Below, piece after piece: positions 6,945 to 40,762 of a stretch of DNA of 46,273 nt (its first letter is position 1; each line of letters begins with the position of its first letter). The notes beneath the pieces are model-generated. The model saw only the letters and a program-made list of their open reading frames with translations, was not told the DNA's origin and searched no databases. The position numbers and the translations under genes were made by a program. Source of the DNA: Nostoc sp. T09 (GTDB taxonomy: Bacteria > Cyanobacteriota > Cyanobacteriia > Cyanobacteriales > Nostocaceae). The DNA is taken from assembly GCF_002154695.1 (NCBI RefSeq), contig NZ_MTAV01000201.1, forward strand, positions 1 to 46,273, in the 5' to 3' direction.

Positions 6945-8114
6945 TTGACAACAGTATTAAATGCATCTCCGCAGCGATTTGTCAATACCCCTGCTGTTCA
7001 ACGCGTCGCTCAACGTGCTTTGCGCTATCTCCAGTCAGGTTTTTCAGTACATTTACGTGGTGCGGCCGGAGTCGGAAAAACTACTCTGGCAATGCATCTA
7101 GCTGATTTGCTCAACCAGCCTATCATCCTCTTATTTGGAGATGATGAGTTTAAAACCTCAGACTTGATTGGTAATCAGTTAGGCTACACCCGCAAAAAGG
7201 TCGTTGATAACTTTATCCACAGCGTTGTTAAAGTTGAGGATGAACTGCGACAACACTGGGTTGATGCCCGATTAACCCTAGCTTGTAAAGAAGGATTTAC
7301 GCTGGTTTACGACGAATTTAATCGATCGCACCCGGAGGTAAATAACGTTTTACTCTCGGTACTTGAGGAGAGGTTGTTAGTATTGCCAACAAATCAACAG
7401 CGAGCAGAGTATATCCGGGTTCATCCTAAGTTTCGGGCAATTTTAACATCAAATCCTCAAGAGTATTGTGGAGTTCATGCAACACAGGATGCTTTGATGG
7501 ATCGTGTTATTACCATCGATATGCCTCCACCTGATGAACTAACTCAGCAGGAAATTGTAGTTCATAAAACAGGCATAGATTCTGAGAAAGCAGACAAAAT
7601 CGTGCGCTTAGTACGGATGTTTTGGAGTCGATCTGGCTCTGGACAGGGCGGTGGGTTACGTTCCTGTCTGATGATTGCTAGAATCTGCCACGAACACGAA
7701 ATTTCCGTAAACTTTGAAGAGCCTAACTTCCAAGATATTTGTGCCGATATCCTGCTTACTCGCACGAATCAACCTCGCATGGAGGCGACTCGGCTACTGG
7801 AAGAGGTTTTGAGTGAATTGCATCGTAGTACAAACACTCAATCTCAGCCAGCAGAGATCATACCAGACAGCCAAAATCAGATTGTATTGGAACAACGAGT
7901 ACCTTACGAGCATGAAGTTTACAACTACCTGTGCAAGTCTCCAGGAAGGCGTTTCTCTGATTTGGCAGCAGAATTAGGCATCGATCGCAGTCAAATTGTA
8001 GCTGCACTCAAGTCTCTCAGAGAACAGGGAGTATTATTGCAAATGCAGGGTAATGCTGAACTGCCAAACATATCACAAGTGGCTTTTGATTCTGGCCATT
8101 TAATAAACAAATGA
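6945..8114 (+). CDS. gvpN: Gas vesicle AAA+ ATPase GvpN with C-terminal winged-helix-like tail
   Basis: A MoxR-type AAA+ ATPase of 389 residues: Walker [11 protein letters not shown] (38-47), Walker [10 protein letters not shown] (about 120-128), the [16 protein letters not shown] segment, and sensor region [16 protein letters not shown]. GvpN is needed for gas vesicles to grow to full width and is thought to act together with GvpC. The start is TTG 6945, fixed by a perfect AGGAGGT at 6929-6935, nine bases upstream. After the AAA+ part the protein carries about 70 extra residues including [30 protein letters not shown], a winged-helix-like motif that also ends the GvpC-like protein at 13232. 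The stop overlaps the gvpJ start (ATGA). Confidence 0.95.
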
Positions 8115-8458
8115 GTACTCATACTAACCGGGGAGTTATTACATCAACTCAAGGTTCCACCTTGGCAGATATTCTCGAACGGGTTTTAGATAAAGGCATT
8201 GTGATCGCAGGAGATATTTCTGTTTCTGTCGGCTCCACAGAACTGCTCAACATCCGAATTCGTTTGTTGATTTCTTCTGTTGATAAAGCCAAAGAGATTG
8301 GAATTAACTGGTGGGAGAGCGACCCCTATCTCAATAGTCAAGCTCGTTCCTTATTAACAACTAATCAACAACTTCAAGAGCGTGTTGCCAGTCTAGAAAC
8401 AGAACTGCGATCGCTCAAAGCACTCAATCCTATTAATCATCAGAATGCAGGCGATTAG
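8111..8458 (+). CDS. gvpJ: Gas vesicle protein GvpJ (GvpA family)
   Basis: The 115-residue product has a GvpA-like core ([53 protein letters not shown]) followed by a C-terminal coiled coil ([21 protein letters not shown]). GvpJ is a minor GvpA relative that probably seeds or shapes the conical caps. It overlaps gvpN by four bases and gvpK by 14 bases, so the three are translationally linked. Length and structure are usual for cyanobacterial GvpJ. Confidence 0.93.
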
Positions 8459-8879
8459 CAAATCAAAAGGTTCCGATTCAGGTTTAGCACCGTTGTTACT
8501 GACGGTTGTTGAACTGATACGCCAACTCATGGAAGCTCAGGTAATCCGGCGCATGGATGCTGGCAACCTCAGCGACTCTGAGTTAGATCGGGCTGCCGAA
8601 AGCCTGCGACAGCTTGAAAAACAGGTTATTCAGCTTTGCGAAGTCTTTGATATTGACCCAGCCGAGCTAAATATTAACTTGGGTGAAATAGGAACTTTAC
8701 TTCCCCAATCTGGAGGATATTACCCTGGTGAAACCTCTAGTCAACCCTCTATTCTAGAACTCCTCGATCGCCTATTAAATACAGGTGTGGTGGTTGAAGG
8801 TGACTTGGACTTAGGACTGGCTCAGTTGAACTTAGTCCATGCCAAGTTAAGGTTAGTACTCACCTCTAAACCCCTGTAA
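8445..8879 (+). CDS. gvpK: Gas vesicle protein GvpK
   Basis: The 144-residue product has the GvpK core LAPLLLTVVELIRQLMEAQVIRRMDAGNLSDSELDRAAESLRQLEKQVIQLCEVFDIDPAELNINLG (about 14-83). The last 40 residues (SILELLDRLLNTGVVVEGDLDLGLAQLNLVHAKLRLVL) look like a short GvpA/J half: compare [23 protein letters not shown] in GvpJ. So this GvpK appears to be GvpK plus a GvpA-like strand-helix; I believe this is usual in cyanobacteria but cannot confirm it. GvpK is required for vesicle formation. The ATG lies inside the end of gvpJ. Confidence 0.92.
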   Translation: MQAISKSKGSDSGLAPLLLTVVELIRQLMEAQVIRRMDAGNLSDSELDRAAESLRQLEKQVIQLCEVFDIDPAELNINLGEIGTLLPQSGGYYPGETSSQPSILELLDRLLNTGVVVEGDLDLGLAQLNLVHAKLRLVLTSKPL

Positions 8880-8920
8880 CTTTTTTATCTACATTCTTCT
8901 TTTCTTGGTAATACATTCTT

Positions 8921-9691
8921 ATGAGTTATGGCTTTTACATTTATGGAATTTTGACCTTGCCTGCTCCAGAAAATTTAAATTTAGAGGGCTTAGATCGGCA
9001 ACCCGTACAAATTAAAATTTTGGATGATTTTGCAGTAATCTACTCCGAAGCACAGCAGGAGCGTTATTTGGCAAGCCGTCGTAACCTGCTAAGTCATGAG
9101 AAAGTCCTTGAGGAAATCATGCAAGCAGGCGATGTCTACGACGGGCTACGGCAACGCAATTTACTACCCGTGCAATTTGGACTTTTGGTTGCAAACTGGG
9201 AAACATTTACACAACAATTAATTCGTCCTCATCAAGAAGAATTGACGCAATTACTAGCAAAATTATCAGGTCGCCGAGAAGTTAGCGTCAAAGTTTTTTG
9301 GGATACCGAGGCAGAAATTCAGGGATTGTTAGCAGAAAATCCAGATATCAAAACCGAAAGGGATAAGCTAGCTGGTCAACCTCTGAATATGGAGCAGGTA
9401 ATCCAAATAGGACAAGCCATAGAACAGGGAATGAGCGATCGCAAACAAGGCATCATCAATTTATTTCAAGGCACGCTCAACTCCATTGCGATCGATGTGG
9501 TGGAAAATAATCCCCAAATGGACACAATGATTTACAACGCAGCCTACCTAATTCCTTGGGAAGCAGAATCACAATTTAGCGAACAGGTAGAAGCACTCGA
9601 TCGCCAATTTGAAGAACGTTTGCGAATTCGCTACAACAACTTCACTGCCCCCTTTAACTTTGCTCGTCTGCGATTATTCAGTTCCAACTAA
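8921..9691 (+). CDS. gvpF: Gas vesicle protein GvpF/L
   Basis: A 256-residue GvpL/GvpF family protein: N-terminal YGFYIYGILTLP, HEKVLEEIMQAGDVYDGLRQRNLLPVQFGLL (about 60-90) and the C-terminal IYNAAYLIPWEAESQFSEQVEALDRQFEERLRIRYNNFTAPFNFARLRL. The family binds GvpA and may act as a chaperone or vesicle-pole component. Its place directly after gvpK matches gvpF in other cyanobacteria. A second, shorter paralogue is at 11871. It is followed by a mobile-element-like repeat. Confidence 0.92.
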   Translation: MSYGFYIYGILTLPAPENLNLEGLDRQPVQIKILDDFAVIYSEAQQERYLASRRNLLSHEKVLEEIMQAGDVYDGLRQRNLLPVQFGLLVANWETFTQQLIRPHQEELTQLLAKLSGRREVSVKVFWDTEAEIQGLLAENPDIKTERDKLAGQPLNMEQVIQIGQAIEQGMSDRKQGIINLFQGTLNSIAIDVVENNPQMDTMIYNAAYLIPWEAESQFSEQVEALDRQFEERLRIRYNNFTAPFNFARLRLFSSN

Positions 9692-25136: not shown

Positions 25137-25167
25137 GGGGAAAGGGTAAAGGGTAAAGGGTAAAGGG
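25136..25167. repeat. Left GGGTAAA purine-rich repeat of the four-helix-bundle unit
   Basis: After the ptxE stop comes GGGGAAAGGG and three tandem TAAAGGG heptamers. The strand is complementary, with mismatches, to the C/T-rich tract at 25560-25618 on the other side of the gene, so the two can pair as a long stem in RNA or DNA. Confidence 0.8.
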
Positions 25168-25175
25168 AAGGAAGA

Positions 25176-25553
25176 ATGGAAAGGAAAAAAATTGAAACTT
25201 TTGAGGATTTAAAAGTATGGCAAAAAGGTATTGATTTAGTTAAGCAAATATACTTAAGGACTAAGGAAGGTGAACTGAGTAAAGACTTTGGTTTAAGAGA
25301 TCAGTTAAGACGTGCATCCGTATCAATACCTGCAAATATTGCAGAAGGATTTGAACGATATTCTCGCAAAGAATACTTAAACTTTCTAAATATTGCTAAA
25401 GGGTCTGCCGGTGAAGTTCGCAGTCTTTTAAGAGTAGCGTTAGAAGTGGGCTATCTAGACCAACCAACTTATACACAACTTTCTAATCAAGCTATGGAGT
25501 TGAGCCGTATGCTATCTAATCAAATTCAATCTATAAATCAGTCATTAAAATAA
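25176..25553 (+). CDS. Four-helix-bundle (23S rRNA intervening-sequence type, S23) protein
   Basis: A 125-residue protein of the S23/Avd-like four-helix-bundle family: ETFEDLKVWQKGIDLVKQIY, then LRDQLRRASVSIPANIAEGFERYSRKEYLNFLNIAKGSAGEVRSLLRVALEVGYL. In spirochaetes and others these genes lie in intervening sequences of 23S rRNA; elsewhere, as here, they are scattered in genomes and their function is unclear. This copy sits between ptxE and ptxF, bracketed by inverted purine-rich/pyrimidine-rich repeats, and is foreign to the chemotaxis operon. AAGGAAG precedes ATG 25176. Its base use (A-rich, few HIP1 sites) differs from the neighbours. Confidence 0.92.
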   Translation: MERKKIETFEDLKVWQKGIDLVKQIYLRTKEGELSKDFGLRDQLRRASVSIPANIAEGFERYSRKEYLNFLNIAKGSAGEVRSLLRVALEVGYLDQPTYTQLSNQAMELSRMLSNQIQSINQSLK

Positions 25554-25559
25554 TAAATC

Positions 25560-25618
25560 TTTACCCCTTCCCCTTTCCCCTTTACCCTTTCCCCTTTCCC
25601 TTTTACCCCTTCCCCTTC
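25560..25618. repeat. Right pyrimidine-rich inverted repeat of the four-helix-bundle unit
   Basis: Alternating CCCCTT, CCCTTT and TTTACCC tracts, the inverse of the left repeat at 25136-25167. It ends just before CTTCATGAGTTACG, which begins another short repeat (ACGAATTACGAATTG) reaching the ptxF start. Confidence 0.8.
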
Positions 25619-31190: not shown

Positions 31191-31757
31191 TCAGAAATAC
31201 CTTCTTACTTGATTGCAATACTCCAAATATTCCTTGCCGTAATGCTTCTTCAAATAGTCTTCCTCACGTAATACTTGACGATGCAACAGCCATGTAGCTG
31301 CACCGATATAGAGCAGAAGTATGAAGTTTGAGAATATCAGGAATTGACCAAGCAAGATAAACGCAAATGCCACATAAATCGGATTGCGGCTAAAAGCGAA
31401 AATGCCTGTCGTTATCAGTTTGTCAGGATGGTTTATATCGATGCCAACACGAAAACTCTGCCCAAAAGAAACAAGACTCCACAACAACAGCAATAACCCT
31501 ACCAGGCAAAAAAACGCTCCGACCCAGGAAACTACCTCAAAATGAAAAAATTCTTGTGTGCTTACAGTAGGAAAATTGAAGGCAGCAGCAAATACGATAT
31601 AGAAATAGAAAAGGACAAATGGCGGAATCAAGAAATCTGTCCGATCTATTTTGCCGAAATTCATTGCTTCTATCCCTTTTGTTTTCATCAGCAAAGTTCG
31701 GGTCAATACCATTGCGAGCATTAGTACAATTGTCAGTACTGCGAAATACCTTGGCAT
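31191..31757 (-). CDS. Isoprenylcysteine carboxyl methyltransferase-like membrane protein
   Basis: A 188-residue integral membrane protein with about five hydrophobic segments and the ICMT/PEMT-type C-terminus: DKLITTGIFAFSRNPIYVAFAFILLGQ and HRQVLREEDYLKKHYGKEYLEYCNQVRRYF, the motif that binds S-adenosylmethionine in this superfamily. Bacterial members methylate phospholipid or isoprenoid-type substrates; the true substrate is unknown. The frame is open from GTG 31769, but ATG 31757 is preferred because GGAG lies six bases ahead. A broken relative lies at 39888-40430. Confidence 0.85.
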   Translation of the reverse strand: MPRYFAVLTIVLMLAMVLTRTLLMKTKGIEAMNFGKIDRTDFLIPPFVLFYFYIVFAAAFNFPTVSTQEFFHFEVVSWVGAFFCLVGLLLLLWSLVSFGQSFRVGIDINHPDKLITTGIFAFSRNPIYVAFAFILLGQFLIFSNFILLLYIGAATWLLHRQVLREEDYLKKHYGKEYLEYCNQVRRYF

Positions 31758-31806
31758 AGAATTCTCCACTCATAATCAGGTTTTTGGTTGCTACATTGAG
31801 TCATAT

Positions 31807-39887: not shown

Positions 39888-40430
39888 TTACCAAAAATAT
39901 GGCAATAACTTATACCTAACTCATTGGATGTAACTATCGTAGCCGTGGAGCTCTTGCCGCAAAAATTTATCCTCAAATTGAATCCGTATAACCAGGATTA
40001 TAGTTGAAACAATCGCTATTAGCGCCATTCTAACCACAGGGACATACCAAGCATCGTCAGAACGGCACCTGCATACATGGGATGTCGGACAACGCTCTCC
40101 AACTCCCTGATCAATCACTGTTTGTTGCAGATTTGCTTGATGTTTGACCGCAGTTGCTGCAAAGGTATTAACCTTAAAGGATAGGGAGATAATCCCCCAA
40201 CCAATAATAAACAAGAGTAACCCCAACACCGAAGAAATCGCCTTTGGTGGAGCAAATAAGTGAAATCGGAAGACATCTAGGGGAATGAAGGCGACCAAAC
40301 TCAGGAATGAGGCAATTAGTAGATTGGCAAGAATTTTGTCACTCAGGGGTTCTTTTTCTTGAATGGGTGGTTTGAGGCGTTCTTGCAATAAAGCATCATC
40401 ATCTCGGAAAACGCCAATCATCGTCGCCAC
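39888..40430 (-). pseudogene. Decayed isoprenylcysteine methyltransferase-like gene
   Basis: The frame from 40430 gives membrane segments typical of the ICMT family, then out-of-family text GERCPTSHVCRCRSDDAWYV. In the next frame the same bases read ESVVRHPMYAGAVLTMLGMS, the conserved motif, and the first frame then resumes (VIRIQFEDKFLRQELHGYDSYIQ). So there are two compensating frameshifts. A TGA at 39921-39923 replaces the codon before VRYKLLPYFW, which is readable to TAA at 39888. The gene is broken in three places and surely inactive. The nearby relative at 31191-31757 is intact. Confidence 0.88.
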
Positions 40431-40468
40431 ATGGGATAACAGGCGTTTCTAATTCACATCAGGCGTAA

Positions 40469-40513
40469 ATTTCAAAATAAAGAGGTGGGTTGAAAGGAAT
40501 GTCACCTTCCCAA
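40469..40513 (+). ncRNA. Delocalised type V-K CAST guide RNA against tRNA-Gly(CCC)
   Basis: TTTCAAAATAAAGAGGTG then GGTTGAAAG looks like a degenerate V-K repeat (TTTCAA...TTGAAA can pair); the end GGTGGGTTGAAAG equals the guide-scaffold end of Scytonema CAST as I remember it. The next 17 bases, GAATGTCACCTTCCCAA (40497-40513), are identical to tRNA-Gly bases 40742-40726 (minus strand), where GGTA (NGTN PAM) precedes them. Short spacers in single repeats are known for the homing guides of V-K CASTs. No array or tracrRNA is visible beside it. Confidence 0.9.
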
Positions 40514-40595
40514 ATTTATTCTTGTAGTGACTGAATCCAAATTTGCATTGATAAATTCAAGTTCAGCATAGAATAAAAGGAAGTGAGTTGTTTAA

Positions 40596-40681
40596 GAGGA
40601 CGTTAATTTGTTAACAGTGACACTAATTCGTTAAAAATGACATGAATCTGTTAACAGTGACAAATAATTTGGCAATCGACA
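40596..40681. mobile_element. CAST/Tn7-like transposon end with four TnsB-site-like repeats
   Basis: On the minus strand four contiguous 20-bp repeats occupy 40675-40596; for example GTTAACAGATTCATGTCATT is 40655-40636. The consensus is near GTTAACAAATTAATGTCACT, and copies resemble the GGTGACAGATTAATGTCATT-type sites of known V-K ends. The outer terminus is TGTCGA (40681-40676). A possible 5-bp target copy TGAAT follows at 40682-40686. The element's interior faces left. No matching second end is seen in the window. Confidence 0.88.
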
Positions 40682-40690
40682 TGAATCAAA

Positions 40691-40762
40691 AGCGGGTGAT
40701 GGGACTCGAACCCACGACGTTCACCTTGGGAAGGTGACATTCTACCACTGAATTACACCCGC
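40691..40762 (-). tRNA. tRNA-Gly(CCC)
   Basis: The minus strand starts GCGGGTGTAATTCAGTGGTA; acceptor stem GCGGGTG pairs with CACCCGC (40692-40698) and T is the discriminator base. The anticodon stem TCACC/GGTGA encloses loop TTCCCAA, so the anticodon is CCC. The T arm is CGTGGGTTCGAGTCCCAT. CCA is not encoded. Its anticodon arm is the target of the guide at 40497-40513, and the CAST end lies 9 bp past its 3' end, so the gene itself is intact. Confidence 0.97.

Follow-up and report, generated by a model that had tools for sequence, protein, structure and literature searches.

Guide, target and transposon end beside tRNA-Gly(CCC)

The window, that is, the whole stretch of 46,273 nucleotides from Nostoc sp. 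T09 that was analysed, contains a tRNA-Gly(CCC) gene faced by a truncated CRISPR-type repeat (R*), a 17-nt spacer and what we identify from its sequence as the left end of a type V-K CRISPR-associated transposon (CAST). The features are as follows.

40449-40468, plus strand: IS-end-like dispersed repeat (CTAATTCACATCAGGCGTAA) adjoining the CAST relic; eight places in the genome; probable deletion edge
40465-40483, plus strand: upstream edge of the surviving CAST sequence; homology to the related loci L020 and L021 begins at 40465
40484-40496, plus strand: truncated repeat R* (GGTGGGTTGAAAG); same element in 20 other distinct loci at ≤2 mismatches
40497-40513, plus strand: 17-nt anchor (homing) spacer (GAATGTCACCTTCCCAA); matches the tRNA target at all 17 positions; related loci have the same guide beside tRNA-Gly(CCC)
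40610-40662, plus strand: three predicted TnsB-type sites at 20-bp spacing (GTTAACAGTGACA, GTTAAAAATGACA, GTTAACAGTGACA), from motif matches and related ends
40663-40681, plus strand: terminus of the CAST left end, ending in CAATCGACA; edge fixed by alignments to contig C146 and locus L042
40691-40762, minus strand: tRNA-Gly(CCC), the attachment gene (ARAGORN and Rfam; anticodon CCC according to ARAGORN)
40726-40742, minus strand: anchor protospacer in the anticodon arm of the tRNA, from its reverse complement identity with the spacer
40743-40745, minus strand: PAM GTA, of the GTN type; by coordinates the terminus lies 61 bp away

By direct sequence comparison, 40497-40513 is the exact reverse complement of 40726-40742 (17/17), and GGTA lies directly 5' of this target on the tRNA strand. 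An earlier note on this DNA had claimed both the identity of these 17 bases to the anticodon arm of a tRNA-Gly(CCC) gene and a GTN-type PAM before the target; the identity is borne out by the comparison and by ARAGORN and Rfam, and the PAM by GGTA. Furthermore, V-K array repeats in homologous loci agree in their 3' part with the repeat-like segment, and the motif of this segment is found once in the genome, so that neither of the outcomes named in the earlier note as speaking against its claim was seen. A weak Rfam match to CRISPR-DR45 (40467-40496, minus strand; 18.9 bits against a cut-off of 37, E 3.3) was set aside.

The motif GGTGGGTTGAAAG occurs a single time in the 8.25-Mb assembly; since the reversed string, used as control, occurs twice, this rarity proves nothing alone. 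Likewise, there are three inverted 17-mer matches in the window, so a lone 17-nt inverted match is weak evidence and would be compatible with a chance identity between a random stretch and a tRNA. Around the guides of 20 related left ends, however, none of 4380 other 17-mers matches the facing strand at ≤2 mismatches, and five do so at 3. This control, together with the R* context, the PAM, the left end, the spacing, the conservation across genera and the change of guides with the adjacent tRNA (see below), makes the probability of mere coincidence negligible. It is the context of the guide that lies beyond chance, not the 17-nt match by itself.

A V-K left end is recognised by repeated TnsB-type sites and a TGT/ACA terminus, and both are present here, the sites as predictions. 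The three sites are nearly identical to one another. The first and third are the only exact matches to the GTTAACAGTGACA motif in the window, while 20 other listed matches (≤3 mismatches) are scattered, and TnsB would be expected to bind the sites at 40610-40662. The outer edge was located by two independent comparisons. In the same genome, the end on contig C146 beside tRNA-Val(GAC) aligns with 40639-40681 and stops exactly at 40681, and locus L042 of genome G394, from the same genus, which has tRNA-Gly(CCC) without a left end, aligns with the window starting exactly at 40682; the edge is therefore placed at 40681/40682. The right end of the insertion was not found, either by motif search in the window or in the left flank of L042, and no target-site duplication was found at the insertion. 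The claim that a delocalised V-K homing guide lies beside its own target is supported, with R* and a 17-nt spacer situated inside a recognisable CAST left end; guide and target had been seen correctly, but the left end at 40610-40681 and the relic state of the locus had been missed.

The end on C146 (L003 1500-1652) has two nested transposon-end-like termini, CGACA and then TGTACA, beside tRNA-Val(GAC), which lie 88 and 58 bp from a candidate GTT PAM. No R* was detected at ≤2 mismatches in the 20 kb of L008.

Comparison with known CASTs

The window locus belongs to a known kind of system and not to a new one. As described in PMC9938897, cyanobacterial V-K CASTs have an R* of ~12 nt, a GTN PAM and a spacer whose usual length is 17 nt, and in most cases a tRNA gene that points toward the left end lies upstream of it. 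The PAM-to-left-end distance given there is 46-82 nt, with one exception of 147, and the 61 bp between the GTA PAM and the left end in the window falls within 46-82 nt (PMC9938897). The window locus shares with these elements an R* and, after it, a 17-nt anchor spacer that matches the neighbouring tRNA, the GTN PAM, a tRNA target pointing at the left end, predicted TnsB-type sites and the ACA terminus. Unlike a complete V-K CAST, of which ShCAST and AcCAST are type examples (PMC11406308), it lacks an array, a tracrRNA, cas12k, cargo and a right end, and only the left-end stub and the guide remain. According to PMC11406308, I-F3, I-B and I-D CASTs, which are Tn7-like elements of other types directed by homing guides or by proteins, also occupy fixed chromosomal sites, some of them beside tRNA genes. 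Those elements use Cascade guides or TnsD-type proteins, whereas the R*, GTN PAM and left end of the window match V-K.

What is missing at the locus

Homology between the window and L020 and L021 runs from 40465, just before R*, through the guide, the left end and the tRNA into the flanking gene, and left of 40465 the alignment to related CASTs ceases. The repeat that adjoins this point, CTAATTCACATCAGGCGTAA, is found at 8 places in the genome at ≤3 mismatches (0 for a control pattern); two of the copies form an inverted pair ~1 kb apart on contig C126, and the sequence beside the copies diverges past the GGCGT side. The repeat at 40449-40468 looks like an IS end, and an IS-associated deletion may have removed the body of the element. 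The array is missing at the window locus, where homology to array-bearing relatives ends at 40465. In addition, several relatives have a promoter-like stretch just upstream of R*, e.g. TTGAGACAAACTCTACTATG in L018, which we read as probable -35 and -10 elements, and this stretch is missing at the window locus when compared with them.

In the Nostoc sp. T09 genome no match to the Cas12k family was found, in a search that was positive for seven of its ten genomes; a further Cas12k search, run without a positive control, was likewise negative. Nor was the tracrRNA core found at ≤3 mismatches, in a search positive for 4/10 genomes. One V-K-type tnsB-tnsC-tniQ operon is present in the genome, on contig C120 (L007 1827-5142; V-K models). 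Its three frames have no internal stops, the tnsB frame matches its model in two parts separated by extra sequence, and end-like motifs occur upstream of tnsB. Of the machinery that the earlier note had suggested looking for in the genome, tnsB, tnsC and tniQ were thus recovered, but Cas12k and the tracrRNA core were not.

From these observations we conclude, with a probability of about 0.92, that the locus is the left-end stub of a dead type V-K CAST that has kept its homing guide and the target of that guide. Set against this conclusion are the lack of a right end and of a target-site duplication, the draft state of the assembly, the C120 operon, and tRNA-Gly loci without R* of the kind seen at L087. 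The assembly is in 270 contigs, and the body of the element could lie elsewhere. The CAST might then still be living, with its body unassembled or on other contigs, the C120 operon as its own and the guide in use, as the uninterrupted tnsB, tnsC and tniQ frames and the 17/17 agreement of guide and target would allow. However, contig C157 continues for 40 kb past the relic with no break at 40465, neither Cas12k nor the tracrRNA core was found in the genome, and the promoter-like stretch upstream of R* is gone, so that a living element seems very improbable. Alternatively, left end and guide may have been kept as a non-autonomous unit, usable in trans by the transposition proteins and Cas12k of another element. 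The surviving tnsB-tnsC-tniQ operon would suit such a unit, as would similar stubs without adjacent cas12k in other genomes (e.g. L109, L114 and L115). Yet no mobile unit can be defined because the right end was not found, no Cas12k was found in the genome, and 10 of 30 related loci lack an R*-guide pair, as decay would give; we consider this very improbable too.

By analogy with the family, the guide loading, the insertion and the past activity of the element would have been as follows. In the living element, R* and the 17-nt spacer would have served as a short homing guide, which together with the tracrRNA would have loaded Cas12k. Cas12k would have bound the tRNA-Gly(CCC) gene at the GTA PAM, and TniQ, TnsC and TnsB would have carried out the insertion at a point 61 bp downstream of the PAM, immediately beyond the 3' end of the tRNA. 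The left end would then have faced the tRNA, with the guide ~185 bp further into the element. Later this place would have lost its array, tracrRNA, cas12k, cargo and right end, with a deletion edge at the IS-like terminus near 40465.

As regards the rest of the window, an intact CAST was sought and rejected: among the 20 ORFs, out of 44 listed, that were scanned with Pfam, neither a transposase nor a Cas protein was seen, and Rfam gave the tRNA only. The idea that 39921-40430 is a relic of the methyltransferase gene at 31191-31769 was also dropped, as there was no tblastn match and Pfam and NCBIfam gave none. At 25137-25596, an inverted exact match of 17-19 bases, with its arms ~440 bp apart, flanks a small ORF (25176-25553) and could be a small mobile cassette. 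A gas vesicle gene cluster is seen by Pfam at 6945-9691 (AAA ATPase, Gas_vesicle, GvpK, GvpL/GvpF), and one of its ORFs combines a GvpK domain with a following Gas_vesicle domain.

Related elements at the same tRNA gene

Scanning for the repeat plus spacer gave seven cyanobacterial records (Nostoc, Spirirestis, Trichormus and Tolypothrix) among named contig records, and matches at ≤2 mismatches in five of 388 genomes of the class, Nostoc sp. T09 included. The two scans yielded 11 loci besides the window, two of which, L012 and L019, are the same DNA, leaving ten distinct ones. The order R*, guide, end, tRNA is the same in all 11 rows (ten distinct loci), and in all 11 the target is on the opposite strand, 193-431 bp downstream of the guide; ARAGORN calls tRNA-Gly(CCC) in ten of them, the exception being L013. 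The target specificity suggested as possibly new is thus not private to Nostoc sp. T09, and other elements of the group share the target tRNA-Gly(CCC). The papers that were searched for 'tRNA-Gly' do not mention it, and the site may still have been reported.

Several of these relatives have more of the element. CRISPR-type repeats precede R* in L016, L017, L018, L020, L021 and L022, split in L017 by unrelated sequence; tracrRNA-like sequence lies upstream of R* in L016, L020 and L021, and cas12k fragments in these three and in L018. Repeats, tracrRNA-like sequence and cas12k, each in part, therefore occur together in L016, L020 and L021, and in L017, L018 and L022 there are repeats, either alone or together with a fragment. 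At L110 (G555:C21) and L013 (G131:C85) the guide adjoins tRNA-Gly sequence without an ARAGORN tRNA call, and the target gene there may be damaged. At L052/L087 (G438:C1, ~2810960-2811078) a left end stands at tRNA-Gly but neither R* nor a guide can be recognised, which makes it a further decayed stub at this site.

None of 11 tRNA-Gly(CCC) loci (the window, nine others and L136) shows a complete cas12k beside the guide. In this count, which leaves out L013 and L014, the contig start truncates L116 and L136, and at L110 R* is altered and no tRNA is called. L136 has an open cas12k frame of 501 aa at the contig start, and this gene may well be intact. Among 12 guide-bearing loci at other tRNAs, cas12k is complete in four (L119, L120, L121 and L123) and not complete in another four (L117, L118, L122 and L124), and the remaining four, near contig starts, hold C-terminal parts only (L137-L140); guide-less loci at other sites have a complete cas12k in 0/8. 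As the loci compared are mutually related and it was the guide itself that led to most of the tRNA-Gly loci, the comparison gives only a hint that elements at tRNA-Gly(CCC) are generally dead relative to those at other sites.

Guides and adjacent tRNAs across related left ends

When 40465-40690 was used as query against 217 genomes of the family, matches were obtained in 137, mostly to end motifs only. Twenty of the 30 loci returned, the window included, have R* (≤2 mismatches) and a spacer that matches the facing strand at 0-2 mismatches, and the other ten have no R*-guide pair. With L020, which was found by its guide, this makes 21 distinct R*-bearing loci. All 21 have a target that falls entirely within a called tRNA gene and is preceded by a GTN PAM, and in 13 guide and target agree at 17/17. 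Eight tRNA types serve as targets: Gly(CCC), Thr(TGT), Thr(CGT), Arg(CCG), Ala(CGC), Cys(GCA), Val(GAC) and Lys(CTT). Among these loci, the left ends next to Thr, Arg, Ala, Cys, Val or Lys tRNA genes have a spacer that fits the neighbouring tRNA instead.

Within the tRNA-Gly(CCC) set, genome G530 (L081 and L109; G530:C287, ~2607-2884) has the guide GAATCTCACTTTCCCAA, which differs from the family guide by two changes and matches its own adjacent tRNA-Gly(CCC) at 17/17. Genome G519 (L082, which is the same site as L016) shows one of the two GAATCTCACTTTCCCAA changes in its tRNA and neither of them in its guide. The variant is also the tRNA-Gly(CCC) sequence in G375, G543 and G545, of the same genus as G530, so the G530 guide matches a tRNA allele of its host group. 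No R* was found in 1.2-1.6 kb around the variant tRNA in these three genomes, and G545 has a left-end match ~40 bp from it. Selection for re-homing could explain the match in G530, and so could copying from the target; in this single case, the guide may have been adjusted to the tRNA allele found in the host group, or an element already adapted may have arrived. That the homing guide of this V-K CAST family changes over time together with the tRNA that it targets is a tentative suggestion, which we hold to be somewhat doubtful.

In summary, the locus in Nostoc sp. T09 is probably a clean fossil of RNA-guided homing, in which guide, target, PAM and transposon end can still be read and the machinery is gone. 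It is also a warning that a perfect guide-target pair does not mean a working CAST. Furthermore, the tRNA-Gly(CCC) set, with guides that match, lag behind or follow their targets, provides a natural record of guide and target evolution after insertion.
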